Below are positions 34,773 through 54,957 of a DNA stretch of 60,086 nt, one piece after another; position 1 is the stretch's first letter, and the number at the start of each line of letters is the position of its first letter. The notes under the pieces were generated by a model, which was not told the DNA's origin, did not search any database, and saw nothing but the letters and a program-made list of their open reading frames with translations. Both the position numbers and the translations under genes were made by a program. Origin of the DNA: Candidatus Poseidonia sp. (GTDB lineage: Archaea; Thermoplasmatota; Poseidoniia; Poseidoniales; Poseidoniaceae); assembly GCA_030827475.1 (NCBI GenBank), contig JAUREJ010000009.1, forward strand, positions 1-60,086, given 5' to 3'.

Positions 34773-37078
34773 CCTTGGGTCAGCGTGGCCCAAACCTTGT
34801 CCTTACGAAGCGAATCGGCCGTGCAAATGGTGGCCATATTCACGATGTGGCGAACACCGTCTTGGCGTGCGACGAGTTGCACGGGTTGAGCCATGCCCTC
34901 CAAGATAGGGCCCGTCATCTCCGCATCGCCGAGCTCCTCGAGCAATTTGTAGGCAATGTTTGCCGAGGCGAGGTTGGGTAAAATCAACACGTTGGCGGGA
35001 CCGACGAGTTCCATGAACGGGTATTCTTCCTGAACCGCTGGATTGAGGGCCGTGTCGCCTTGCATCGGTCCGTCGATCATCAAGGTAGGGTCGAGCGTCC
35101 GGGCGATTTGGACCGCCTCTTCGATGCGTTGGCTTCGCTGAGCGCGAGTGGACCCGAAGTTGGAAAACGAAAGCATCGCCACCCGAGGAGCCACACCAAA
35201 TCGGCGTGCAACCTTCGCGGTCTGGACGGCAATTTCAGCCAACGTTCGACTGTCAGGGTAGACGTTCACGGTCGCATCCGCGAGGAAGATGGTGCGGCCC
35301 TTGACGTTCATCATGTAGCAGCCGATGACGCAATGTGCGTCGTCCGCTTTGCCGATGAGTTCCAGCGTAGGTCGAAGCACATCAGCGTAATTCCGACTCA
35401 CGCCTCCGACAAAACCGTCGGCATCCCCTGAATGAACCATTTGCGCCGCAAAATAAGGTCGGCTCTTCAGCAGGCGAGCAGCATCGAGCCAGGTGGTCCC
35501 CTTACGTTGTCGTCGCTTGAAGAAGGCGTTGGCGTAGACGGTTTTTCGCCGCTCGTCGTAGCGGGGGTCGCAGGCTTCGTAGGCGAAGTTCAAACCGAGT
35601 TCCTCAACCATGCGGTTGATGCGGTCAACCGGCCCGAGCAAGATGGGAGAGCAGATGTTTTGATCAACCAATTGAGCCGCTGCCCGAAGCACGGATTCTT
35701 TGTCGCCTTCAGGGAAAACGATGCGCTTGCCTTTGCCTTTGACCTGGTTGATAACTTGACGCATGACGGAGTAGGATTCACCAAGGCGTGCTTCCAACTC
35801 CTCGCGATAGCGAACCAGGCTGAATTCTTCGGACGTTACCCCCGCAACGCCTTCCTCGATCGCGGCTTCTGCGACGGCAGCGGCTTCCCAGATCAAAACA
35901 CGCCGGTCAAAGGGTTTGGGAATGATGTATTCCGGCCCGTATTGCATGACGACGCCGTCATAAGCTGCTGAAATGTAGTCGGGTACCGGTTCTTTGGCCA
36001 AGGCTGCGAGCGCCCGAGTAGCGGCCATTTTCATGTTTTGCGTGATGTCCCTCGCCCGCACGTCAAGAGCGCCACGGAAGATGTAAGGGAAGCCAAGCAC
36101 GTTGTTGACTTGATTCGGATAATCCGACCGCCCTGTGGCGATGATGGCGTCGTTGCGAACCTTCAGCACCTCTTCAGGCGTGATTTCCGGCGTGGGGTTG
36201 GCCAAAGCGAAGATAATGGGATTCTCGGCCATGCTGGCGACCATCTTTCCTGTGACAAGACCACCGCGTGAAAGCCCAAGCATCACGTCAGCACCTTTCA
36301 GTGCATCCGCAAGTTCGCCTGCGGGCCGATCGTGGGCGAACGGCGCTTTGTATTCGTTCAGTTCACCGGCATCCAACCGAGCCTTGGTCACGATGCCTTG
36401 GCTGTCGACCAGGGTGATGTTGGCCATCGAAACCCCAACGGCAACGTAGTGATTTGCACAGGCGATGGCCGATGCTCCAGCCCCGATGACCACGACCTTC
36501 AGGTCACTCAAGGCCTTTCCTTGGAGTTCGGCAGCGTTCAAGAGGGCTGCAGCAGAGATGATGGCGGTGCCGTGTTGGTCGTCGTGCATCACCGGGATAT
36601 CGGTCGCTTCGGCAATCCGTCGCTCGATTTCAAAACATTCAGGCGCCTTGATGTCCTCAAGATTGATGCCTCCAAAGGTTTTCGAGATGTTGACCACGGT
36701 GTTGATGAATTCCTCCGAGTCTTCAGTATCAACTTCGATGTCAAACACATCGATGCCGGCGAAGGTCTTCAGCAAGAGACCCTTGCCCTCCATCACGGGC
36801 TTGCTCGCCAGCGCCCCAATGTTGCCGAGCCCGAGCACAGCGGTCCCGTTTGAAATCACGGCGACAAGGTTGCCTTTGGAGGTGTACCGGTAAGCATCTT
36901 CCGGACGCTTTTCAATCTCAAGGCAGGGGTAAGCCACGCCCGGGGAATACGCAAGGCTCAGTTCGTGGGCCGTCGAATGCGGTTTGGTGGGGACGACCTT
37001 GATCTTCCCCTTTGGCTCCGCTTCGTGGTACTCAAGCGCTTCCTTACGGAGAAGGCGATCCTTTTTGTTGAGCGACAT
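34754..37078 (-). CDS. maeB: NADP-dependent malic enzyme fused to phosphotransacetylase-like domain (MaeB type)
   Basis: AYSPGVAYPCLEI, MHDDQHGTAIISAAALLNA, VVIGAGASAIACANHY; C-terminal PTA-like KRIVFPEGDKESVLRAA...YPDSRTLAEIAVQTAKVARRFGVAPRVAMLSFSNFGS. Confidence 0.95.
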   Translation of the reverse strand: MSLNKKDRLLRKEALEYHEAEPKGKIKVVPTKPHSTAHELSLAYSPGVAYPCLEIEKRPEDAYRYTSKGNLVAVISNGTAVLGLGNIGALASKPVMEGKGLLLKTFAGIDVFDIEVDTEDSEEFINTVVNISKTFGGINLEDIKAPECFEIERRIAEATDIPVMHDDQHGTAIISAAALLNAAELQGKALSDLKVVVIGAGASAIACANHYVAVGVSMANITLVDSQGIVTKARLDAGELNEYKAPFAHDRPAGELADALKGADVMLGLSRGGLVTGKMVASMAENPIIFALANPTPEITPEEVLKVRNDAIIATGRSDYPNQVNNVLGFPYIFRGALDVRARDITQNMKMAATRALAALAKEPVPDYISAAYDGVVMQYGPEYIIPKPFDRRVLIWEAAAVAEAAIEEGVAGVTSEEFSLVRYREELEARLGESYSVMRQVINQVKGKGKRIVFPEGDKESVLRAAAQLVDQNICSPILLGPVDRINRMVEELGLNFAYEACDPRYDERRKTVYANAFFKRRQRKGTTWLDAARLLKSRPYFAAQMVHSGDADGFVGGVSRNYADVLRPTLELIGKADDAHCVIGCYMMNVKGRTIFLADATVNVYPDSRTLAEIAVQTAKVARRFGVAPRVAMLSFSNFGSTRAQRSQRIEEAVQIARTLDPTLMIDGPMQGDTALNPAVQEEYPFMELVGPANVLILPNLASANIAYKLLEELGDAEMTGPILEGMAQPVQLVARQDGVRHIVNMATICTADSLRKDKVWATLTQGQDTSS

Positions 37079-37268
37079 ACGAAGTCCCAGCACAATCGGG
37101 GAGGAAGAGGTGTTTGAGTCTTGTGCGGAAACGAACCGTCCGAGCACCAATCCAAGGACCAACAGCGACGGCGGAACCGAAACGAATCCGTTTTGTTCCA
37201 AAATCACTGAAGCGTTGTTCCAGCAATCAAGGGCCTGTTTCAAATACGGGGAAAGACCCGTTTCGTTC

Positions 37269-40200
37269 ATGAACAAGGCGAATTCGGCTTATCGCCGCTC
37301 GCAACAGCGCCAAAAAGCCGTTTCGATGGTGGCCCTCATGCTCCTCATGTCCATGAGTCCATTGTTGACCTTACCTACGGTTTCGGCCCATGCCGAACCC
37401 AGTGGAGTCTCATGGCCGCTGGAGGGAAGCAACGACACGGGGTGGATTCGCCTCGATGCAACAGGTGCCAACCCGCTTACTGGCCAACAAGCCACGGCCG
37501 ATTGGAACCTTTCCTTTGCTCCAGGTGCCGCCCTCTCCAACGTGACCCTTGAAATCCGAGCAAGTGGTGAAAACGGGTTGACCATCAGCGAGCCGCATCT
37601 CACCGTCAACGGCATGGGAACATCACTCTTTGATTGGCGGGGCCTGGGTACGCTTGGGCAGGCCAACGACTTTGCAAGCGGCTCAATCTACACCGGTCGA
37701 TTGAACCCCAACAGCAACTCAGGTGCTGGATGGGATCTGCCATCGGACGCCGAAATCACCGAGATGATCATCGAGGTTTTGTCGCCTTCCGATCCCCTTG
37801 TTTCCCTCGGGCCCGTCTCGTTTGAAATCAACGACGCGGAGGTAGACGACGCCTCGGGCTTACTCTACTTGGCCACGACGACAAAACTCCTCCTGCTCAA
37901 CGCCAACAACGACCCTGTCATCGTTGACGCTTACGACTTTGAGTCCGAAGGAGGTGTCTTGGACATCGTGATTGACGACACCAACGCTGTGCTCCATTTG
38001 CTGCTTGGCGACGGGACCTTCCGCGCCATGTCGCTTCTTGACAGCACTTCCCTCGCAGCGTTGGGCGACGGCGACGTCGACCGCTTCCTCATGACCAGCG
38101 CCGGTGATGTGTTTGCGGCCAGCGGCACTGGCCTGTACGAGTGGGACGGCGGCGCATGGAAGCAGCGCATGGTATCCACTTCCAGCGACACCCCCACGCG
38201 GGCTTTGGCCATGGTCGAAGTCAACGGCATCGTGTATGCCTCCATCGAAGGCGCGGGCGTGTTGCGCTACAACACCGCTAACGCTCAGGCGCTTTCCACT
38301 TGGTCCACCGCCAATTCCCTCCACTCCGACAATGTGGTTCAAATCGTACCCTCCGGAAACCAATTGCTCCTTGGTTCCACCGACTCTGGCGTGGGGCGCT
38401 TTGATTACGCCGCTGGGTTTTGGCTATCCACCTGGACCTCCGCCAATTGGCTGGCAAGCGACGACATCGCCGGTATCCAGCGAGTTGGGAGCGTTCTGTA
38501 CATCCTCAACGGGGATTCGCTTCACACCTACAACGTCTCCAACGGGGTGTTTTCCACGAACTACGACCTCGCCAACCTCAACCTCGCCGGAACCGGTGCA
38601 TCCCTCCTTCTCTGGGATGGGGCAGGGGTTGGGTCGCCATCTACACCTGCACTTCTGGTCGACGATGCAAGCGGAACCTTGGCCCACCTCAGCCCCGAGC
38701 AAGTCCCGTTCTTCGAGGGCAACATCGTCCTCGCAAGCGGACCCATAACCACGGACATGGTTGACATCGTTGAACTCGACAACATCCTCTACATCTCGGC
38801 GGGTGACGGCTCTGGCATCTTGCGCTACGACATCGAAAATGCCGTTTGGATGACGCCATGGACCGGCTTGAACGACGATGCCGTGGCCTTGGTGGCCGCA
38901 CCTTCGTCCACAGGGGTCACCTCCTTGTTCGCAGCCACGTCTGCCCAACCAACGGTCAAGGAGTTGGGCCAAGCCGGCCAAGTGCTCACCACCTACGATG
39001 GAACCTCGGGATGCTACCCCTCAACCTCGGATATCGTGGGTTTGGCCGTTGATGCGAACAACGTCGTGATGAGTCTTGACAGCGGAGTGTTCGTTCACTT
39101 CCAACGCACGGGTCAACAGGCAGGTGCGTGTACAGCGTACGACACCACAAACGGCTTGCCCTCTTCGTTCCTTGGCGATGTGGCTCTTTACGGCGGAAAC
39201 GCTTATCTGGCCACCGAAGACAAAGGCGTGTTACGCTACAACATCGCCAACGACACCTGGCTCGAGCCTTGGGGGTCGACCGGCATCAACGGCGTCAACG
39301 AAGCCCCCGTGGCCATGGTCGGCGATATCCTGCACCTTGGCCTGCAAGGGTTCGGTGTGGTTCGCAAGGACATGAGCACCGGAGAAATCCTGTCGCCGCT
39401 TTTGGCGTCGAACCAAGGGGGTGTTTTGCCCTCGAACCAAATCTACGCATTGGAGTCCGACGGTTCCAACTTGTACATCGGCACGCAGCAGGGCGCCCGG
39501 AAATGGGACGGCAACCAAGCCACAAATTTCGGCCAAGGAAGCACGTGGCAAACCCGCCCCTTCCAGTTCTTTGATTTCGTCATCGACGGAGGGGATTTGT
39601 ATGCGGGAACCAACATCGGCGTTTGCAAATACACCCTCTCCACCATGGCCGTCAACGATTGTCAAAACGTCTACGACGGCATGCCCAACTGGGCGACCTA
39701 CAGCGTGGGTGTGGATGCATCCTACGTCTATGGGGGCACCAACGACGGCGTTGGACTCATCACCAAATCCAATTTCCAACACGACACGAACTGGGGCGAA
39801 GGAACCCAAACAGGAAACGCCGTGGTGGAGATCATGGGCGACATCGCCTACATCGGCACGGAAGGCTTGGGCGTGCTGCGCTACAACATCACCTCCAACC
39901 ATTGGTTGACGCCGTTCAACGAAGACAACGGTGTTCTCGACGGTGGAAACGACGACGTGACGGGTTTGGTCGCCGATATCCGCCCCAATCTGCTTTGGGT
40001 TGGCGGCGACGACGGTTTCCAATTGATCAACGTCACGACCGGTTCCGAAGCCTACGACATCGAACGCAACAGCAACCTGTACACCGCTTCTGGACCGCCC
40101 CATGAAATGGTGATTCACAACAACATCCTCTACTACCACGCCAGCACAGCCAGCGATGAAGTCAGTCGCCTTGACGTCGCCAACCTCACGGCGCTCAGCA

Positions 40201-43200
40201 ACCTCGACATCGGGGCACAAGTCGGCGAAAACGGAGGCGACATCACCTCAATGGAAATCATCGGCGACGAGTTGTTGGTGAGCGTGGTCTCGGGCCAGTG
40301 GTGGAACGCAGACGGGTCGGGTGGCATCGCTCGCTGGGACACGGTGAACGCCTCGTTCGCTCCAAACGTGCTTCCAACGGGCTCCATCGACCGCGTCACC
40401 GCCTACGAATCGTCCGCTGGCAACACCTGGGTGGCATGGGGCGAATTGAAGCTGGACCTCTACGATGCTAACCGTTCCCTCGTGAACTCGTGGACCTCGT
40501 TCGACCTCCCGATTCGAGGCATCGTTGAATACGACGGTGAAACCTTGTTTGCTACCGAAGACGGTGTGCTTCGCTACAACGAATCCACCAACCAGTGGAA
40601 CTCGAAATGGGAAGCGGGCAACGGCCTGCCGAACAACGCTGGTGAACGATTCTACGAGCTTTGGACCAACGGAAACGACCTCGTGATCGGCGGAGCCCGG
40701 TTCAGCAACTTCGGAGGCTTCCAAGAGGGGATCATCTCCCACCTCAGTTCATCCGGGGCATGGACAACCTATCCGGCAGACTCCCTCACCAACGTCCCTG
40801 ACGGCTACCCAATTTCGATGGAAATGTGCGGGGGTGTACTCAACGTTGCCATGTACAACGGAAACGGTGGCATCGCGCGCATCGACCTGCAGAACGGAAC
40901 CCTCTCCCCCCTCGACAGAACCCAACTTGACGGAACCGGACCTGCATCGGTCACCTGCGACGCCCAAGACACCCTTTACATCGGCTACTACAACGACAAC
41001 CAACCCGTTTCCCGGTACAGCTATGTTACAGCTGCCTTCCTTTCCAGCCTCACCACCTCAAGCCACAACCTGCCCAGCGACCGTGTCTGGTACGACGGCC
41101 TCGCCCATTCCGGCACCCAACTCCTCGTGGGGCACGGTATCGGGTTCACCGGAACCAACGTCATCGGCGGGGGGTACTCCACCTTGGTCGCCAACGGTGC
41201 CACGGCGCTTCAGGCTCAAGTGTATAGCGGTGGGTCCTCCGTGACCTCCTTCCAGTGGCAGAGCGGTTCATCGCAATGGCTCATCGGTCAAGCCGGTGGC
41301 GCCTCTGGGTACAGCCATGTTTCGAGCCTGTCGTCAAACGGCATGCAGAAGATCGTCGACCTCCCCGGATTGGTCAGCGGCCAAGTTTCCGCCATGACCG
41401 CCAACAGCACCCACATCTGGGCCGCAACCGGAGGCGGACAAACGGGCGGCGCTGGAAATTTCGGTGGAAGCGGCACCGGACTGCTCCAAGGCATCTTCCT
41501 TCCCAACGGCAGCGTCGAATGGACCTACGGCTGGACCCTTCCGGGCAACACCGTCGCCAACGACCTCATGCTCAACGGTGGCGATTTGTACATCGCCTCA
41601 AACCCTGACGGCTTGTACAAACTCAACCTCCGGACCAAGGCCATCACAGCAATTTCTGGCTCACTCCACGGAAAGTTCGACACGATGCACCTCTACAACG
41701 GCGAATTCGTGTTCGGTTTAGCAGGTGACGGCGGAAGCCCGCCGGGCGTGCAAATGTTTGATCCGTCCACGGGCCAATTCGGGAACGGTCGCCTCATAGC
41801 AGGTCTCCCTTCCAACATCATCAACGGGTTCACCTCCACGACCGATGTTCTGTACATCGCCACCAACGGCGGCATCGGCCGATGGAATTACAGCACCAAC
41901 GACTGGATGGATTCCATCACAGCGGGCAACGGATTGCCCAACGACATCGTCGAAGACGTGGTTTCGGTCGGTGATGACATCTACATGGCCACACCTTCCG
42001 GAGTGTTCGTTTGGGACGCCTCCACCGGGAACGGCACCACCATGACGACCGCCGACGGTCTGATGGGACAATCCGCTTGGGGCTTGGTCAAACATACGAG
42101 CAGTTCAGGTGCGGTCTCCATCCTCGTCAGCCACGACGGTCGGGGTCCAGAGCGACCCGGCGTGAGCATCATTGACGCAGCCACACAGCAGGTCACCTCC
42201 ACTCACCGGTTCGACCAACTTCCGTCCAACACCGTCACCGCACTCACCAGCGATTGGTGGGGCCTTCACATCGCTACGGAAGGTTGGCCGCTGACCCATT
42301 GGAACGCTTCCAGCGGTGATTTTGAAGACGGTGCAATCTTCACTCAAGTGCAGTATCCCGTTCACAGCATGTTTAGTAACGGTGACCAACTTTTGGCATT
42401 GGGCGGACAAAACGACGGCATGTTGGTCGAAGCGCGAACCGTCGCACACGCTTCTCTGCAAACCTTCCGCCCCGGAAGCGTGACCGGGGGAACGTTGGGT
42501 GCGAACACGATTTGGATCATCACCGAGGACGGCCTCCAAGGTTGGGCCAACAACCGACAATACACACCGGTGGAAGAAGTCAGCATGCGCCGGGCCCTGC
42601 CTTTGACGCTGCGAGCCATGAACAACGGCGGGGGCGTGGACGTGAGCAACATGACCCACCCAGGCATGCCCGTCCAACTCGTTGACTCCACCATGCCTTA
42701 CCAACTGGACGGTTCGCAAGGTACGCCAGGCGTTCACAACCTCCTCTTCCAAAACGTCCCCGTGGTCATGACCTCACCCGTGGAAGGCGCTGCCATCTGG
42801 GCCAGGGCTGTCTCGCTCGAGTACGACGTTACCTTGAACATCAGCGGAGACCCTGCGCTCGCGTTGAACCTGCAGGACGCCGTGGACAACGGACAACTTT
42901 TCAACAACACGCGGCACGTTTCTCTTCGCCTGTATTCGCCCGCCAACGGGTCCTTGGAAGCGCGCATCACCTACGATTATGTTCGCTCGGACACCCCCGT
43001 TACAATGGAGGGATTGGTGGACCGGCCCGACGACGGCGGGGGCATGCTCACGGCCTCTTGGTCGCTGGTTCATGACGAAGACTTTGCTCGCTACCTCATC
43101 TTCGTCAACGAAGGGCCTTGGAGCGCTTCACCGAGCGAATTGATGCTGTTGGGACAAACCCCCGACAAAGCCATCTCCCTCCACAGCCGACTGTCTGCTG

Positions 43201-45581
43201 ATGTTGAGACCGCAAACGGTCAACCGCTTCAAGACGGCGTGGAATACTACGCCACCGTCGTGGTTGAGTACAGCGATGGACGATGGGGTGAAGTGGCCGA
43301 TGCACTCGGTCCAGCGAGTCCCAGCGACGAAATTCCCGGCGCACCCTTGTGGGCATCCGCACAGGCGCTTGGCAATTCAGGCGATGACGGCGATGTGGAG
43401 CTTGAGTGGGCTCGCTGCACGGCGCTTGACCTGGCGAGGACGAACATCTACGTGGCCACCACCCCGATGACGGACGCTTATGGACGAACCCCCTACACTT
43501 CCATGGCACCAAACGAAGGCAACCTCTCGGTTGTCTCGCTCACGCCCGCAGTACCGGTTTGGATTGGCTTCACCTGCGTTGATAAAGCAGGTCAAGAGAA
43601 CCTCGCAAACATCACGGTCGTCGGACCCATCGTCCCAACCGGTGAACTCAACGACAACGAGGCACCTGAACCGGTTGAAGGAACCGCTGCAAGCGACATC
43701 CCGAACGACGAAGGTGGTCGTTTGCGGGTCACATGGAACCAGAGCGGTGCCGAAGACTGCGCCTTTTACACCGTCCTCATCAAGCAGGGTGACCACGTGC
43801 CGGAAAACGGTGAACGTGCCGGTGTTGACGGCTTTTCGCAGGCTGCCGTCGTCAACCCTTGCGATGCAACCGAGGCGGTCATCAGTTCAATGGACGGCGT
43901 CCCACTCATCGATGGGCAAGTCTACACGTTCGGTGTCGTCGCCTACGACGTCTGGATCAACGGCAACACGGACGAAGTGACGCTCGTCACGGCAACACCG
44001 TTCCAAAACATCGTCGGCCAAGGCAGCACGCCGCCGCGAATCATGTCCCTGATGGCTTTTGACCACCCCGATGATGACGGAACCGCCGTCGACGTGGTTT
44101 GGGAACCTTCAACGGTTGAAGACTTTGCATCCTACACCGTATGGGTCTCCAATCGTCCGGTTTCGAACCTTGCATCGGCTTACGCAACCTTCGGCACCGA
44201 CCCGGATGCTTGCGGTTGCTTCTCGTTCAACAAGCAGTGGATTGACGAGCGAACAAACCCCATCGAGCTAACCCTTTCCACCGCCCTCTACGTTCCTGAA
44301 GGAGGCGAGTTGACGGACGGCACCCTCGGTCTCATCCAGCCCGATGTGAAACTGTACGTTGCCGTCACGGTTCACGATCTCAAAGGCAACGTCCATCTGA
44401 CGAACCTGACGCAGGCAACCGTGACGCCCATTGACAACCAAAACGACATCACGGCGCCAGACCGCATCACGGACCTTGACCTGCGAGACCGACCCAACGA
44501 CGACGGTACGGCGCTCCTGCTGGACTTTGAGCCTTCAACCTCCAGCGACGTGGCCTTCTACGAGGTCCATGCAGCAACCTACGATTTCGGAGGCGCTGTC
44601 AACGCCCAACTTCCTTCCGTCGCCACCTTGGGCAGAAATCCCGCCTTCCCCGTCGTCATCGACCTTGTTGCAGGTGACGCCCCCGTCGTGCCCGGACAGA
44701 AAATCTGGGTGGCCGTTGTGGCGGTCGACACCTCGGGCAACGCTCACACCACCCAACTCACCGTGGTTTCAGCAGAATCGACGGATGAGGGGATCACTGA
44801 TGCGGGCATTTACCTGCCGGATATTGAAAGCGTTCAGGCTGAGTGGTTTGACAACACCAGCATCCTTGTCGAATGGCGGCACTCGATCGACGCCAATGTA
44901 CGTGGTTACCATGTTTACATCAGCGACGAGAGGTTTGTTTCGACCGAAGATGCAACGATGGTCGGCCAAACCGTGTCGGACAACACCTTCCTCATCACGA
45001 CCGAAAACTACGCCGAACTTGACGCCGCCTCGACGTGGTTCGTTGGTGTCGTTCCGTACGACGATTCGGTTGCAAAATCAACCGTGGAATCGGTCAAGGT
45101 CGACCCGCTCCAAACCGGTGAACAGGATGGTGAAACCTCAGACGAGACCGGACAACTCTCGCTTGACTCGCTCCTAACGGGTCCAAACATCATCGCAGCA
45201 GGGATGATCATCATCATCCTCTTGCTCCTCATTTTGGTCGTCCGCTCTCGAGGCGCTTCTTCCCAGAAAGCGAAGGGATGGGAACTCCAAGAGGCGACGT
45301 GGGGTATCCAAGACAAGGACTGGAGCGATGTTCCACCTGCACCTCCCTCGATGGCTGCACCGGCTCCACCCCAAGGCGTATCGACGCAGCAGGCCAACGA
45401 CATCTATGCCGCCGCCGATCAAATCCTAGCCACGTCGACCGGACGCGAGGTCTACCAGCAACAACAACCCGTTTTGCGCCCACAGGCTGACCCGTCGTTG
45501 CTCGATGGTTTGCTTGATGAGGCACCTGCGACGTCGAAAATGCCGCAAATTGACACGTCCTTCCTCGACGACCTGTTGTGA
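37269..45581 (+). CDS. Giant surface protein: propeller-type repeats, FN3-like domains, one C-terminal TM and cytosolic tail
   Basis: Signal (MVALMLLMSMSPLLTLPTVSAHA); many repeats of the type GVLRYNxxxxxWxxxW (GVLRYNTANAQALSTW, GILRYDIENAVWMTPW, GVLRYNIANDTWLEPW, GVLRYNITSNHWLTPF, GVLRYNESTNQWNSKW); TM NIIAAGMIIIILLLLILVVRSRG. ATG at 37269. Confidence 0.88.
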   Translation: MNKANSAYRRSQQRQKAVSMVALMLLMSMSPLLTLPTVSAHAEPSGVSWPLEGSNDTGWIRLDATGANPLTGQQATADWNLSFAPGAALSNVTLEIRASGENGLTISEPHLTVNGMGTSLFDWRGLGTLGQANDFASGSIYTGRLNPNSNSGAGWDLPSDAEITEMIIEVLSPSDPLVSLGPVSFEINDAEVDDASGLLYLATTTKLLLLNANNDPVIVDAYDFESEGGVLDIVIDDTNAVLHLLLGDGTFRAMSLLDSTSLAALGDGDVDRFLMTSAGDVFAASGTGLYEWDGGAWKQRMVSTSSDTPTRALAMVEVNGIVYASIEGAGVLRYNTANAQALSTWSTANSLHSDNVVQIVPSGNQLLLGSTDSGVGRFDYAAGFWLSTWTSANWLASDDIAGIQRVGSVLYILNGDSLHTYNVSNGVFSTNYDLANLNLAGTGASLLLWDGAGVGSPSTPALLVDDASGTLAHLSPEQVPFFEGNIVLASGPITTDMVDIVELDNILYISAGDGSGILRYDIENAVWMTPWTGLNDDAVALVAAPSSTGVTSLFAATSAQPTVKELGQAGQVLTTYDGTSGCYPSTSDIVGLAVDANNVVMSLDSGVFVHFQRTGQQAGACTAYDTTNGLPSSFLGDVALYGGNAYLATEDKGVLRYNIANDTWLEPWGSTGINGVNEAPVAMVGDILHLGLQGFGVVRKDMSTGEILSPLLASNQGGVLPSNQIYALESDGSNLYIGTQQGARKWDGNQATNFGQGSTWQTRPFQFFDFVIDGGDLYAGTNIGVCKYTLSTMAVNDCQNVYDGMPNWATYSVGVDASYVYGGTNDGVGLITKSNFQHDTNWGEGTQTGNAVVEIMGDIAYIGTEGLGVLRYNITSNHWLTPFNEDNGVLDGGNDDVTGLVADIRPNLLWVGGDDGFQLINVTTGSEAYDIERNSNLYTASGPPHEMVIHNNILYYHASTASDEVSRLDVANLTALSNLDIGAQVGENGGDITSMEIIGDELLVSVVSGQWWNADGSGGIARWDTVNASFAPNVLPTGSIDRVTAYESSAGNTWVAWGELKLDLYDANRSLVNSWTSFDLPIRGIVEYDGETLFATEDGVLRYNESTNQWNSKWEAGNGLPNNAGERFYELWTNGNDLVIGGARFSNFGGFQEGIISHLSSSGAWTTYPADSLTNVPDGYPISMEMCGGVLNVAMYNGNGGIARIDLQNGTLSPLDRTQLDGTGPASVTCDAQDTLYIGYYNDNQPVSRYSYVTAAFLSSLTTSSHNLPSDRVWYDGLAHSGTQLLVGHGIGFTGTNVIGGGYSTLVANGATALQAQVYSGGSSVTSFQWQSGSSQWLIGQAGGASGYSHVSSLSSNGMQKIVDLPGLVSGQVSAMTANSTHIWAATGGGQTGGAGNFGGSGTGLLQGIFLPNGSVEWTYGWTLPGNTVANDLMLNGGDLYIASNPDGLYKLNLRTKAITAISGSLHGKFDTMHLYNGEFVFGLAGDGGSPPGVQMFDPSTGQFGNGRLIAGLPSNIINGFTSTTDVLYIATNGGIGRWNYSTNDWMDSITAGNGLPNDIVEDVVSVGDDIYMATPSGVFVWDASTGNGTTMTTADGLMGQSAWGLVKHTSSSGAVSILVSHDGRGPERPGVSIIDAATQQVTSTHRFDQLPSNTVTALTSDWWGLHIATEGWPLTHWNASSGDFEDGAIFTQVQYPVHSMFSNGDQLLALGGQNDGMLVEARTVAHASLQTFRPGSVTGGTLGANTIWIITEDGLQGWANNRQYTPVEEVSMRRALPLTLRAMNNGGGVDVSNMTHPGMPVQLVDSTMPYQLDGSQGTPGVHNLLFQNVPVVMTSPVEGAAIWARAVSLEYDVTLNISGDPALALNLQDAVDNGQLFNNTRHVSLRLYSPANGSLEARITYDYVRSDTPVTMEGLVDRPDDGGGMLTASWSLVHDEDFARYLIFVNEGPWSASPSELMLLGQTPDKAISLHSRLSADVETANGQPLQDGVEYYATVVVEYSDGRWGEVADALGPASPSDEIPGAPLWASAQALGNSGDDGDVELEWARCTALDLARTNIYVATTPMTDAYGRTPYTSMAPNEGNLSVVSLTPAVPVWIGFTCVDKAGQENLANITVVGPIVPTGELNDNEAPEPVEGTAASDIPNDEGGRLRVTWNQSGAEDCAFYTVLIKQGDHVPENGERAGVDGFSQAAVVNPCDATEAVISSMDGVPLIDGQVYTFGVVAYDVWINGNTDEVTLVTATPFQNIVGQGSTPPRIMSLMAFDHPDDDGTAVDVVWEPSTVEDFASYTVWVSNRPVSNLASAYATFGTDPDACGCFSFNKQWIDERTNPIELTLSTALYVPEGGELTDGTLGLIQPDVKLYVAVTVHDLKGNVHLTNLTQATVTPIDNQNDITAPDRITDLDLRDRPNDDGTALLLDFEPSTSSDVAFYEVHAATYDFGGAVNAQLPSVATLGRNPAFPVVIDLVAGDAPVVPGQKIWVAVVAVDTSGNAHTTQLTVVSAESTDEGITDAGIYLPDIESVQAEWFDNTSILVEWRHSIDANVRGYHVYISDERFVSTEDATMVGQTVSDNTFLITTENYAELDAASTWFVGVVPYDDSVAKSTVESVKVDPLQTGEQDGETSDETGQLSLDSLLTGPNIIAAGMIIIILLLLILVVRSRGASSQKAKGWELQEATWGIQDKDWSDVPPAPPSMAAPAPPQGVSTQQANDIYAAADQILATSTGREVYQQQQPVLRPQADPSLLDGLLDEAPATSKMPQIDTSFLDDLL

Positions 45582-49001: not shown

Positions 49002-50288
49002 TCATGTCTTGGCGTGAATTTTCAGGACATCGCCGTCGGCAAGTTCGTGATCAGCACCCACGACGCGACGGGTTCGTCCGTCAACACCACGGATGAAGCC
49101 TGCACCCAAATCGGTGTGGACGTGGTTGGCAAGCGCCTTGGCGTGCATGCCTTGAGGGACGACAAAGGCGTCTGGCAACACGCGCCCCTCTCCGTCAACC
49201 CAATGGGTTTCATCTTGGACAGGATAAACGACGATACGATTGAGGTGGTCAAACAGCACCGTATCGAGAAGACGAGCAAGCCCGGTGCCCCCCATCGTTT
49301 GCAATTTTGCGTGCATGTGATTCAATGCCTTTTGTTGGGCATCGCTCAGCGATGAAGCGGACGTCACCTCAAACGTATCCGCCCCCAGACGGTAGTGAAT
49401 CAAGCCGGATTCAGTCGCCCTGCGAAGCGCCAATTCCATGTCCGCCATGCACGGCACGATGGTTCGGTTGACAAACCGGTCGAACACGCCTAAAGGCGCA
49501 AGGTCGGCTTTGTTCGCCGCGTAGACGATGGGGAAGAGGTGGAGGCGCAAACTTTGGCCAAGTTGCTGGAGAACGTCAGCCCCCCAATCCCAGGGTTGGC
49601 CCTCAACCGAACGGTGCTCTCGGAAATGCATCATCGCCTGCATCACCAGTGAATGGGTTGCGCCCAACCCGCTCAAGCGTTCATGAATAAACGAGACGAG
49701 GCCTTTCTCGCCCTCGGCCTGTACCCGCCGTACGCCTCGGTTCCATCCATCGTTGAGCAGCCCGCCAATCCAAGCATCCAGCTCGTTTTCAAGGAAGGTG
49801 ATTTCCGCTTCCATGCGATTGGAGGCGTCCTCGAGGGACGCTGCACCGCCGAGGTATTGGCCTTCTTCGTCGGTGGTGCCTGCAGCATCAAGCACCTGAA
49901 TCAGCACGTCGCAATTGGCCAAGTCCGCGAGGAAAGCGTTGCCACGGCCCCGACCTTCGCTCGCACCAGGGACGAGGCCGGCAACGTCAACCAGCGCTAC
50001 GGGGACAGACCGTCGGTGACCGATGCACGTTCCCGTCCGAGGTTCGCAAAGACTTCCTTGACGAGGATCGTCAGGCGTCATGGGCGCCAACCGGCCTTCG
50101 TCTTCCAACTTTTCCCGCAAACTCTTGCACGCACAAGGAAGCCGTGCTTCAACAAAAGCAACACCGACATTGGGGTCAATGGTGCAGAAAGGGTAGTTCG
50201 CAATATCAACCTGCGCAAGCGTGGCCGCACTAAAGAAAGTGGATTTGCCGACATTCGGTTTTCCGACCAGCCCGATGCGCACAAGCAT
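49002..50288 (-). CDS. ychF: YchF/Obg-family GTPase with C-terminal TGS-like domain
   Basis: RIGLVGKPNVGKSTFFSAATLAQVDIANYPFCTIDPNVG, LVDVAGLVPGASEGRGRGNAFL, YAANKADL; C-terminal TGS-like VDGRTRRVVGADHELADGDVLKIHA. Confidence 0.93.
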   Translation of the reverse strand: MLVRIGLVGKPNVGKSTFFSAATLAQVDIANYPFCTIDPNVGVAFVEARLPCACKSLREKLEDEGRLAPMTPDDPRQGSLCEPRTGTCIGHRRSVPVALVDVAGLVPGASEGRGRGNAFLADLANCDVLIQVLDAAGTTDEEGQYLGGAASLEDASNRMEAEITFLENELDAWIGGLLNDGWNRGVRRVQAEGEKGLVSFIHERLSGLGATHSLVMQAMMHFREHRSVEGQPWDWGADVLQQLGQSLRLHLFPIVYAANKADLAPLGVFDRFVNRTIVPCMADMELALRRATESGLIHYRLGADTFEVTSASSLSDAQQKALNHMHAKLQTMGGTGLARLLDTVLFDHLNRIVVYPVQDETHWVDGEGRVLPDAFVVPQGMHAKALANHVHTDLGAGFIRGVDGRTRRVVGADHELADGDVLKIHAKT

Positions 50289-50301
50289 CACCGAGCGTTC
50301 T

Positions 50302-52287
50302 TCACTCCTCTTCTACCGAGGCGGTGATGTTGTGGTCCCGCTTGACTTGAGCGATGGCGATGTCAAGTTCGGGGAGGTTCAATTCGCCGTCTCCGTCGAG
50401 GTCCATGCTCTCAACGAGGTCAGCAGCCTCAATACTGGACAAGGCCGTGATGTTGGAGTCCTCGAGGGCAGCCAAAAATTCCCGGCTGTCAATCTTCCCG
50501 GATTCGTCAAGGTCCATGCTTCGGAAGAGGTCGAACACCGATTGGTCCGTGTCAACGAGGTATTGGACGAAGTCCACCATGGCTTGGGCCGTCGTGGCCG
50601 GGAACTCGGTGATCTCGTCGTTGTGGAGAGCCGCAGCAACGCCGATGACGGTAGAACCGCCTTCGGCTTCCGATGCTTCACCCACGAGAAGTTCGGTATC
50701 AACGCCGACTCCGCGCCCGATCAGCGCTCGAATGGTGGTGGAAGAACCGGCGACCAGCGTGTAGGTGGAGACGTCCGAGGCCACAATTGCGTCCACGGTT
50801 CGACCGGAGGAGGAAATGCCTGTTCGAATGGTGACCAAGGTCGCAAAGATGGTTCCGATGCCAAGCAAGTAGAACAGGGCAGCACCCGTCAAGTAGAAGC
50901 CGCCGTTGTTCGCCACAACATCTTCGATTTCAGAGGATGCAACTGCATTGGCGGTGAACTCGCCCGTCAGATAGATCAGCGTTGATGCAACGCCCCCCAC
51001 CAACACCAACCACGAGGCCAGATGGGCGCTTGAAGGGGTGGCCAGCGGCTTTCCAATCGCCAGCGGGTAGTTGGTGAAGACACCGGCAAGAACGAGCAAG
51101 CCCCCGACCGTGAAGAGCATGCCGAGGTCGACGGCGTGAGCCATAGTGCCCAATTCACCGGTTCCAACGAAGGTGTCCATGGCGGTGAAGTACCCGCCGA
51201 TGGCAAAGAATGGAAGCACCATGAACGCCATGACGCCCGCCATGGCTCCGGGGTGCTTGACCGCCGCACTCAAACCGCTGGCTGCGGTCATGACGAGGTT
51301 GATGGAGACCGCAAAGAGAGGCAGCATACCGAGGGTCAGGAGGATGGCCCCTAGGTTGGTTACGAAATTGCTTCCTGAAGCCTCGGTCATGAAGAACGGA
51401 GGGACGGTCACGAAGAGCAGGAACATGCTGGCTGTCCGCATCGAGCCCGACCAAATGGGTTGCTTGGAGGCCATGGGAATCACGTGATAACCGACGGCGA
51501 ACATGAAGGCCAGCGGAGCCCAGCCCAGCGCAACACGCTCACCGAACCAAACCACCTGGGTCGCATCGGCAAGCTCGCCGAAGAAGATGAAGAACATCGA
51601 GAGGATGTAGGCTGCAAGCCCCATGATGAGGAACCAAGCGCTCGTTTGGAGATCTTGTTCACCGCGCTGTGCAACCGTGATGAGGACGTTGATGAAAACC
51701 GGAAGCAACAACATGCCGACGACCACCGTTTCAAGGCTGAACAAGAACGTGCGGTAGGGATTTTCTGAGGTGTCGAGGTCCAAGAACCCGAAGATGAACG
51801 GGAGGATGTACGTGGCCAGAAGAACCGCAGACAGCAGAACGGCCACCATCGAAGCGTTGGCCTCGCTGGCGAGGCGTCCGTTGCCGTTGCGTGCAGCGGC
51901 GACCATGGCGCTTCCGATCAGTCCGTAGAGCAAAGCGATGCTGAGGAAGTTCACCGTGGCGTCTTTCAGTGACGACCCATCATCGTAGGACCAACCGACG
52001 CTAGCGAGCGAATCCAGTGCGGTGGGGTCGTAATTGTGCCAGCCCCAGAGGAAGCCAAGGACGCTGGAAAAAACCAACCAGAGCATGCCGAAATTCATCC
52101 AGGTGCGGGAACCGCTACCGTCTTTGTCGTCAAAGATGTCAACGAGACCGGGCGGGTTCTTTCGGAGCACAAACAGGCCGATGTGTTGGAGCGCACCGCC
52201 CACCGAGCCAACGCCCTTTGCGAGGGATTGGGAGAGCAAAAACAGGGCACCAATCATGAAGGCGCCAGCAAAGAAAACCGTTTCCAT
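50302..52287 (-). CDS. Polytopic membrane protein resembling heme-copper oxidase subunit I (ligands mostly lost) with C-terminal EF-hand pair
   Basis: FINVLITVAQRGEQDLQTSAWFLIMGLAAYILSMFFIFFGELADATQVVWFGERVALGWAPLAFMFAVGYHVIPMASKQPIWSGSMRTASMFL resembles the cbb3/NorB TM5-7 pattern. EF loops DLDESGKIDSRE and DLDGDGELNLPE. Confidence 0.6.
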   Translation of the reverse strand: METVFFAGAFMIGALFLLSQSLAKGVGSVGGALQHIGLFVLRKNPPGLVDIFDDKDGSGSRTWMNFGMLWLVFSSVLGFLWGWHNYDPTALDSLASVGWSYDDGSSLKDATVNFLSIALLYGLIGSAMVAAARNGNGRLASEANASMVAVLLSAVLLATYILPFIFGFLDLDTSENPYRTFLFSLETVVVGMLLLPVFINVLITVAQRGEQDLQTSAWFLIMGLAAYILSMFFIFFGELADATQVVWFGERVALGWAPLAFMFAVGYHVIPMASKQPIWSGSMRTASMFLLFVTVPPFFMTEASGSNFVTNLGAILLTLGMLPLFAVSINLVMTAASGLSAAVKHPGAMAGVMAFMVLPFFAIGGYFTAMDTFVGTGELGTMAHAVDLGMLFTVGGLLVLAGVFTNYPLAIGKPLATPSSAHLASWLVLVGGVASTLIYLTGEFTANAVASSEIEDVVANNGGFYLTGAALFYLLGIGTIFATLVTIRTGISSSGRTVDAIVASDVSTYTLVAGSSTTIRALIGRGVGVDTELLVGEASEAEGGSTVIGVAAALHNDEITEFPATTAQAMVDFVQYLVDTDQSVFDLFRSMDLDESGKIDSREFLAALEDSNITALSSIEAADLVESMDLDGDGELNLPELDIAIAQVKRDHNITASVEEE

Positions 52288-52301: not shown

Positions 52302-52574
52302 TTATTCGGCAAGCACCTCGCCCACCAAAGTTGCAACGATCGCTCCCACACCGATGAGGAAGCCGATGAGATAGTACCAGATGCCGCTCCCGCCGAGGTT
52401 CTGAACCAGCGGCACGAGTTCGCCGAGCAGGGGCAGATTGTCCCAACCGAAGATGTTTGAGAAAAGAGAATACAAGCCGAGCAAGCCAACAAAAAAGAGC
52501 GTCAAAACAATCCTGCTGGCAGTGGGTTCGCCCGTGCCGACGGTCGTGTCGGGAAGGGCTCGAGCGTTTGTCAT
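52302..52574 (-). CDS. Small membrane protein, putative operon partner of the oxidase-like gene
   Basis: MTNARALPDTTVGTGEPTASRIVLTLFFVGLLGLYSLF...GIWYYLIGFLIGVGAIVATLVGEVLAE; stop 15 bp before the next gene start. Confidence 0.6.
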   Translation of the reverse strand: MTNARALPDTTVGTGEPTASRIVLTLFFVGLLGLYSLFSNIFGWDNLPLLGELVPLVQNLGGSGIWYYLIGFLIGVGAIVATLVGEVLAE

Positions 52575-52681
52575 ACGGTGCACCTCAAAATGACCCCATA
52601 GGGGTCAAACCTCCGACTGGACGGGCGGTGATAAACATTCACCACGCTCAATGACGAAAAAGAACGACCTGCAAGGCGGTC

Positions 52682-53848
52682 TCAGGGTGAGCGAAGGGCG
52701 TCAACAACCCTCCCGCGTCGGGGTTTCGAAATCCCGAGTGGGAGCGGCAGGTGGCGTTCCAACATGACTTCGGTTTCCCATACGCCACGGCACGTACAAT
52801 CCAACCCTTCGAATTCGAGCAGACTTCCCGACACCGCATAACGTTCGATGGCGGCGACGACCTCGGAATCGCAGGTCCCGCAATTGTGCGAACCGCGTAT
52901 TTTCCCTCCAGCCGTTGGGTGCACGATGAGGCGAGATACCTGGTCTTCATCACCGTTCGTGCCGCCCTTCGGGTGGATCACAGCGTGGGCTCGCTGAATC
53001 ATTTCAACCAACGACCAAAGCCACGGAGGGCGGTATTCGTTGTGCCGATGGAGGCGGTCGATGACGGTCCCCCGTTGGATGTTCATCGGATTGACCGAGA
53101 TTTCGTCCGACCGATCTGCAACGGCTGCAATCCACGTGACGCAGTGGTCAAGGGCATCGGCTTCGCTCATGAACGGCGGCTTGAACATCAGGTAGGTTTT
53201 GACGCGGAGATTGAAGCGCTGAAGATTCACCACAGCACGGTCCCATGCGGCGGTGGAGAATCCTTTGTTGACATGGAAGCGAAGCACTTCATCGTCGTAA
53301 GCCTCGAGGCCGATGGCCACGGTAAACGAAGGGTTGATGCTCGTGGCCCAAGCGAGTTTGGCTTCCGTGAGTTGTTCACATCGGCTCTCAACGATGAGTT
53401 CCTTCCCAAGTTCGTGGCAGTCTCTCAAAACGGTTTCTTGGAAATCAACGGGAATTTCCCGGTCCTCGAGCAGGCTTCCTGAAGTGTAGACCTTGACCAT
53501 GGCCTGTTCGCTGAAGTTGTCAAACTTCTTCTTCGCAGCTGCCCATTGGGCGTGGAGGTCCTCGCTGGTCACATCGTCTCGGGTGTCGTTGAAGTATCCG
53601 CAAAAGGTGCACCCCGATGACCACCACCAATGGCATCCCTTGGTGCGAAGAATCACGGTGACGGCAGAACAAGGCGTTCCGTCCTCCTGCACTTCGGGTG
53701 TCGTGTACACCGTTGCAGGCTCAGAAGCATCCCAAGATTGTTGCTTGGCCTTGGCCCAAGGAGTGTTCGCCGGAGCTTTCACCAAGTCGTGAATTCGAAG
53801 GCCGCGGTCGGTGGTGCCGAGTAAGGACTGGGGACGAGGGTCGGCCAT
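52682..53848 (-). CDS. Archaeosine biosynthesis radical SAM protein RaSEA-like
   Basis: VILRTKGCHWWWSSGCTFCGYFNDT, VKVYTSGSLLEDREIP, ELIVESRCEQLTEAKL, AIGLEAYDDEVLRFHVNKGF. ATG at 53848. Confidence 0.88.
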   Translation of the reverse strand: MADPRPQSLLGTTDRGLRIHDLVKAPANTPWAKAKQQSWDASEPATVYTTPEVQEDGTPCSAVTVILRTKGCHWWWSSGCTFCGYFNDTRDDVTSEDLHAQWAAAKKKFDNFSEQAMVKVYTSGSLLEDREIPVDFQETVLRDCHELGKELIVESRCEQLTEAKLAWATSINPSFTVAIGLEAYDDEVLRFHVNKGFSTAAWDRAVVNLQRFNLRVKTYLMFKPPFMSEADALDHCVTWIAAVADRSDEISVNPMNIQRGTVIDRLHRHNEYRPPWLWSLVEMIQRAHAVIHPKGGTNGDEDQVSRLIVHPTAGGKIRGSHNCGTCDSEVVAAIERYAVSGSLLEFEGLDCTCRGVWETEVMLERHLPLPLGISKPRRGRVVDALRSP

Positions 53849-53883
53849 GGGGTCACCGCATGCTTGCGTCGGTGTCGTTGGTT

Positions 53884-54957
53884 TCAAACCACCGCATCCG
53901 GCTTTCCGATGCTCGATTCAAAGAAACCCACCATCCGGTCCCGGTATTCGTCGGGTTGGGTGAGCATCAGCGTGACGTGCGAGAGAATGCCTTCCCGGTC
54001 CCGGTCGTTGTGGGCAACCCCGGAGGAGGCAAACCAGCAGTCAACGGACCCGTCCTCGTTCACGCCCGCTTGAGCGGCTTCGCACATGGATTCCCCGTGG
54101 TGGATGTTGATGCGGACATCTTCCAAGGATTGAGTGATGAACACCGAACGGTCCCCCACATCAGCCATGGCATTGATGGGTTCGTACTGAACGAGATCAT
54201 CCCCGGACGAAACTTTCCCAGCAAAGATGGCTGCATCCTTCAGGAAAGGAGGGAAACCGGCAAACACCAACTCTTCATGGATGATGGTACCCATCGAAGA
54301 GAACGGTGATTCAAGGAAAATGGACTGCAATTTCGGTTCTTGCTCAAAGGCGATGGTGACGGCCCCCGCGCCCATCGAGATGCCTACCCCACCGATGTTT
54401 TCGGGCGCTGTACCCTTCTCATCCTGAATCCACTGCCAAACAGCAAGGAAATCCCGGTACTCTCGCTGACCCGCCGAAACCAAACCGTCCTCGGTCGTGC
54501 TGTCGCCGTGGTCTCGCATGTCGAAGAGGATGACGTTGAACCCTGCTTGGTGGAGCCACGCTGCAGGAATCAACACTTCGTGGTTGGCTTTGCAGGACCG
54601 GATACCGTGGACGAGGATGACCCAAGGGCTGGAAGCGTTGCTCTCCATCACCCAAGCCGCCAACGTGATGGGTTCATCCGGCACGTCGATGGTGACGTTG
54701 TCCCACTGGTCAAACCACAACGGTTGGAGGTTGGAAGCCAGGGTCTCGTTCTTCTGATGTGTCACCGTGGCCACGTCTTCGTGCCACAATTCAACGCTAA
54801 ACTCAGCCGGTGAATTTCGGGCGGCGTGTCCAGAGCAGTCTGGACTGCTCGCAGCCGCCTGCGTGTAAACGAGGTTGCCGACCTGGAAGTAAGCAAACGG
54901 CATGCTCGCTATGAGAAAAATCAACACCGCAGGAACGGTTCGTCGCCATCCACTCAT
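53884..54957 (-). CDS. Alpha/beta hydrolase with N-terminal membrane anchor
   Basis: N-terminal TM TVPAVLIFLIASMPFAYFQVGNLV; VILVHGIRSCKANHEVL, FDMRDHGDS, nucleophile elbow GISMGAGAV. ATG overlaps the psd stop (ATGA). Confidence 0.82.
   Translation of the reverse strand: MSGWRRTVPAVLIFLIASMPFAYFQVGNLVYTQAAASSPDCSGHAARNSPAEFSVELWHEDVATVTHQKNETLASNLQPLWFDQWDNVTIDVPDEPITLAAWVMESNASSPWVILVHGIRSCKANHEVLIPAAWLHQAGFNVILFDMRDHGDSTTEDGLVSAGQREYRDFLAVWQWIQDEKGTAPENIGGVGISMGAGAVTIAFEQEPKLQSIFLESPFSSMGTIIHEELVFAGFPPFLKDAAIFAGKVSSGDDLVQYEPINAMADVGDRSVFITQSLEDVRINIHHGESMCEAAQAGVNEDGSVDCWFASSGVAHNDRDREGILSHVTLMLTQPDEYRDRMVGFFESSIGKPDAVV

Follow-up and report, generated by a model that had tools for sequence, protein, structure and literature searches.

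Nearly all Poseidoniales, an abundant order of marine archaea, carry a membrane protein that is truly related to subunit I of the heme-copper oxidases, CcoN of the cbb3 oxidases being the closest, and that has kept none of the six metal-binding histidines as a conserved residue. The protein, here called the pseudo-oxidase, does not occur in the remainder of the phylum sample, and its kinship with oxidases is demonstrable at the level of the family profile only. In one family, the Poseidoniaceae, it ends in a pair of EF-hands. A search of open-access PMC papers returned no account of a whole abundant marine archaeal order retaining a conserved subunit I that is redox-dead. One census of subunit I was built after discarding sequences without the six histidines (PMC3084760), and such a census would therefore omit proteins of this kind.

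The representative analysed here lies in a 60,086-nucleotide stretch of Candidatus Poseidonia sp. (the window), from a genome of 1.82 Mb in 100 contigs. The best protein match among named relatives, 96% identical, is in a MAG labelled Poseidonia / Candidatus Poseidoniaceae (Marine Group II archaea). Comparisons below are drawn between the Poseidoniaceae and the other family of the order, its sister, which judging from the literature is the Thalassarchaeaceae. The relevant features of the window are as follows.

50302..52287, minus strand: 661-aa pseudo-oxidase, ATG start (reading frame, profile and PDB matches, AF2 model with Foldseek, family-wide conservation)
50815..52287, minus strand: membrane domain, aa 1-491 (alignment to CcoN chains 9g6b/3mk7, histidine counts per column)
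50689..50742, minus strand: juxtamembrane motif STTIRxLLxxGxGxDT, aa ~516-533, kept in both families
50335..50592, minus strand: EF-hand pair, aa ~566-651, with loops DLDESGKIDSRE and DLDGDGELNLPE (Pfam, match to NuoL of the same genome, topology)
52302..52583, minus strand: 93-aa protein with two TM segments, directly upstream of the pseudo-oxidase and a candidate partner subunit
52682..53887, minus strand: RaSEA, the radical SAM protein of archaeosine biosynthesis (TIGR01210, 273 bits against a cut-off of 212)
49002..50291, minus strand: Obg-family GTPase, YchF-related and YGR210-like, downstream of the pseudo-oxidase

The relationship to oxidases is invisible when the 661-aa protein is searched alone: it has no match to PF00115, its only notable Pfam matches being to EF-hands, and nothing in NCBIfam above the curated cut-off. 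Two less-diverged homologs (G033 and G057) do match PF00115, both at the same place, with E-values of 7.1e-9 (35.6 bits; cut-off 34.8) and 5.3e-7, and 3 of the 22 members of the pseudo-oxidase family match it overall. The expectation, raised by a sequence-only reading, that COX1-family models would recognise the protein thus holds for its relatives and not for the window protein by itself. Against the PDB, the profile of the 22-member family retrieves cbb3 CcoN chains at 1e-9 to 3e-5 and otherwise EF-hand proteins at E-values of 0.5 or above; with the tail removed, the profile finds CcoN at 2.8e-12, NorB of cNOR weakly at 0.0033, and no other match. Alignment of the family to two CcoN segments by hhalign gave a probability of 97.9. 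The predicted structure agrees: Foldseek, queried with the AF2 model, ranks CcoN first through seventh (best match E 1.9e-8, TM-score ~0.76 over the target), followed by cNOR (4xyd, 3o0r), ba3 and aa3, in keeping with the cbb3/NorB-like character that had been read from the order of the TM segments and their local motifs. Descent from the A-type COX1 of the same genome is not supported, since hhalign found a single match of 93 columns to the family at a probability of 5.7, while CcoN was matched strongly.

In the AF2 model (pLDDT 77.9, pTM 0.73) the protein comprises a CcoN-like domain of 13 TM helices (aa 1-491), a linker (492-565) and the EF-hand pair. The reading frame and all quoted motifs are as originally read; the count of about 14 TM segments is revised to 13, one extra N-terminal helix preceding a predicted 12-TM oxidase core. 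Lysine and arginine are distributed asymmetrically over alternate loops (mean 14.4 versus 0.8 per sequence), which by the positive-inside count gives an N-out, C-in orientation; together with the odd number of helices, this predicts that the EF-hand tail lies on the cytosolic side, and an extracellular tail, in which Ca2+ would be structural only, is rejected on these grounds. The juxtamembrane motif, of which no further copy was found in the same genome, has low pLDDT by itself.

Compared with CcoN, a C-family heme-copper oxidase subunit (PF00115), the pseudo-oxidase shares the 12-TM fold and local motifs around TM2, TM6, TM8 and TM10, but lacks all six metal ligands. The positions corresponding to CcoN H60, H207, H257, H258, H345 and H347 were located by alignment to 9g6b/3mk7, H60 being the residue directly before the aligned segment. 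None of the six sites has a conserved histidine within several residues in the 49 aligned homologs, a result independent of exact register that bears out the proposed loss of ligands. A relic histidine persists in the CuB-ligand column in 7 of the 49, all from the sister family, and some members have histidines at the adjoining columns 254 and 384, off the ligand positions in the alignment. Nor was any near-invariant histidine, methionine or cysteine found in the family, whose near-invariant residues are mostly G, W, P, F, N and T. An ordinary oxidase with displaced ligands is ruled out, a conserved histidine being found nowhere in the family; the six histidines that bind the low-spin heme, the high-spin heme and CuB/FeB in catalytic O2 and NO reductases are not conserved in it. 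NorB of cNOR differs from it likewise in having its metal ligands, and also in its NorC neighbour. The same genome encodes an intact A-type cox1, a 782-aa frame on contig 11 that keeps the motifs TLHGTTM, GHPEVY, WGHHM and AHFHY and is flanked by frames resembling subunits II and III. Profile, fold and ligand columns together uphold the description of the protein as a cbb3/NorB-like pseudo-oxidase with a fused pair of EF-hands.

A comparable case may exist elsewhere in the archaea: the halobacterial family fam02696 has been described as a distant homolog of subunit I of the heme-copper oxidases (PMC9258230). Going by its description, it resembles the pseudo-oxidase in being archaeal, in having no Pfam annotation and in showing distant subunit I homology only, and it is set apart by its occurrence in Halobacteria, often beside genuine oxidase or NOR genes.

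Both parts of the protein are under constraint. Relative to six congeners, Nei-Gojobori dN/dS lies between 0.04 and 0.11 in the membrane part and between 0.02 and 0.11 in the EF region, rising to 0.31 at most in the linker; several of the pairs are close to saturation at synonymous sites. All 59 close genomes have a match, which includes the membrane domain, sometimes as a fragment, in 58 and is due only to the EF-hands of NuoL in the remaining one. In a sample of 293 genomes from the phylum, the protein was matched in all 82 genomes of the two families (the membrane domain in 81, EF-hands only in one), in none of six genomes from the remaining family of the class, and elsewhere by no full-length match and one short weak one, although absences may stem from incomplete MAGs. 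A pseudogene is ruled out by the occurrence of the protein in nearly every genome of the order and by the low dN/dS (0.02-0.11) of its TM and EF parts, and the conservation across the order, together with the EF-region values, excludes a chance reading frame.

The EF-hand tail has a narrower distribution than the membrane domain. Its two loops, DLDESGKIDSRE and DLDGDGELNLPE, are canonical, being paired and having acidic or polar ligands at positions 1, 3, 5, 9 and 12, and EF-hand_7 matches the window protein at 2.7e-6 (28.1 bits, just below the 30-bit cut-off) and the best family member at 4.7e-9; the loops were rightly recognised from sequence as textbook examples, and the pair probably binds Ca2+. 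The fusion, however, recurs in relatives only within the Poseidoniaceae, and the whole sister family retains the pseudo-oxidase without EF-hands. The tail thus does not define the protein, and Ca2+ cannot be essential to its core function. A SAP domain, unusual on a membrane protein, forms the C-terminus of four of the 22 family members (L044, L046, L047/L077, L045/L070), whether or not EF-hands are also present.

The neighbourhood of the gene differs from that of a cbb3 oxidase. The ccoO and ccoP genes that would complete a CcoNOP complex are absent from the loci compared, and in their place the 93-aa two-TM gene lies directly upstream on the same strand at 18 of 18 loci; the AF2 model of its product is weak (pTM 0.37). 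Within the window no cco, cox, nuo or atp gene adjoins the pseudo-oxidase. The same-strand block with RaSEA upstream and the GTPase downstream is kept in those loci of both families that cover the stretch, which may indicate that gene order is conserved without a functional link. Elsewhere in the window, a very large reading frame of 2865 aa (36984-45581, plus strand) has no Pfam match at 1e-5.

Modules that contain calcium-binding domains and are specific to the Poseidoniaceae and Thalassarchaeaceae have been reported (PMC9258230). Within its own genome, the EF module of the pseudo-oxidase is matched best by one inserted into NuoL ahead of the GFWSK helix, and EF-hand pairs were found on several other proteins.

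L063:3459-6044, minus strand, contig 7 of the same genome: NuoL with an EF-hand pair in the loop before TM12
L182:971-3385, plus strand, genus g16: AtpI (V_ATPase_I) with an EF-hand pair at aa ~325-407, the c subunit being next
L185:2600-3172, plus strand: second half of a split NuoJ, ending in an EF-hand pair, in a nuoH-nuoI-nuoJ run (one g3 genome, near a contig end)
L172:846-2585, minus strand: UbiA-family prenyltransferase with an N-terminal EF-hand pair and a PAS domain (one genome)

The NuoL module is present at all 28 Poseidonia loci read (L139-L166) and absent from NuoL of eight other Poseidoniaceae genera; in the sister family, all but one of the genomes with a readable gene lack it, the exception having a diverged EF-hand pair at the same site. 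In genus g16 it was found in AtpI at six loci read (L182, L180, L181, L184, L187, L188), with more indicated by ORF length, and it is absent from AtpI of g1, g2, g4, g17, g19 and three genera of the sister family. In a tree of the EF modules, a split with 96/95 support sets those of the pseudo-oxidase, NuoL, AtpI and NuoJ apart from the majority of zinc-ribbon and small EF-hand proteins; the pseudo-oxidase side also includes two long-branched modules, the one linked to UbiA and a single repeat from a zinc-ribbon EF protein. With few columns and long branches, this tree supports no inner order or direction of transfer. NuoL and AtpI have this closely related module in common with the pseudo-oxidase and nothing else, the host proteins being different.

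A role as a Ca2+-regulated sensor, transporter or complex subunit, as first suggested, is plausible, and the evidence leans towards a complex subunit engaged in energy coupling, because related EF modules occur on NuoL, NuoJ and AtpI and because the 93-aa neighbour is obligate. On this reading, the ligands for heme and copper would have disappeared from a subunit I of the cbb3/NOR type before the radiation of the Poseidoniales, and selection would then have retained the ligand-less protein in the membrane without catalytic function. Together with the 93-aa protein, it would most likely be a subunit, structural or regulatory, of the energy-coupling membrane apparatus (complex I, the oxidase or the A-type ATP synthase), and in the Poseidoniaceae its cytosolic EF-hand pair would bind Ca2+ and control or dock the assembly. 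The position of the gene between RaSEA and the GTPase, outside the cox, nuo and atp operons, counts against such a role, and we regard the chances as about even that a redox-dead oxidase scaffold has been repurposed as a non-catalytic component of energy coupling, with Ca2+-dependent regulation or docking in the Poseidoniaceae.

Oxidase folds already contain proton paths, and the protein could instead be a stand-alone transporter or channel for H+, Na+ or Ca2+ built on that fold. Cytosolic Ca2+ would gate it via the EF-hands, and the 93-aa protein would be an accessory subunit. Conserved polar residues within the membrane or close to it (N200, T204, N330, T334, E142) would suit this reading, as would the fact that the EF-bearing NuoL and AtpI are themselves ion-translocating subunits; yet no conserved membrane-embedded chain of acids and bases was identified, in a comparison covering residues other than those of the CcoN proton channels, and the sister family has no EF-hands with which to gate the protein. 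We consider it possible but unlikely. Less probable still is a membrane-anchored cytosolic signalling or scaffold protein, in which the dead oxidase would be an anchor and the C-terminal EF-hands, or the SAP domain in some genera, would do the work. The SAP domains, the gain and loss of EF-hands between families and the conserved, single-copy juxtamembrane motif fit this arrangement, but what is conserved across the order is the membrane domain rather than the tail, and its dN/dS is as low as that of the EF region. That the protein is still a redox enzyme, its heme or metal held by unusual ligands, is very improbable: the seven CuB-column histidines speak for it, as do the recurrent histidines of the sister family (window-protein columns 86, 129, 164 and 482, none an oxidase ligand site), which could form a lineage-specific metal site, but Poseidoniaceae sequences, including the window protein, lack those histidines, and the family has no near-invariant histidine, methionine or cysteine.

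The preferred reading, a non-catalytic subunit of the energy-coupling apparatus, concerns organisms that have complexes I and II and a low-affinity cytochrome c oxidase, lack canonical bc1 genes and possess a putatively Na+-driven ATP synthase (PMC6336850). A broader proposal may be made tentatively, with the balance somewhat against it: that the order-wide redox-dead paralog is a dedicated energy-coupling membrane component, that a mobile EF module has settled on the pseudo-oxidase, NuoL, NuoJ and AtpI in different Poseidoniaceae lineages, and that Ca2+ directly regulates or docks their respiratory complexes. The module may be merely promiscuous in this lineage, since it also occurs on unrelated proteins such as the UbiA prenyltransferase of one genome. 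Its recurrence on complex I, ATP synthase and the pseudo-oxidase offers a testable case of Ca2+ control of respiration in a prokaryote, and the pattern suggests a hitherto unrecognised, calcium-linked part of the energy machinery of Poseidoniales.
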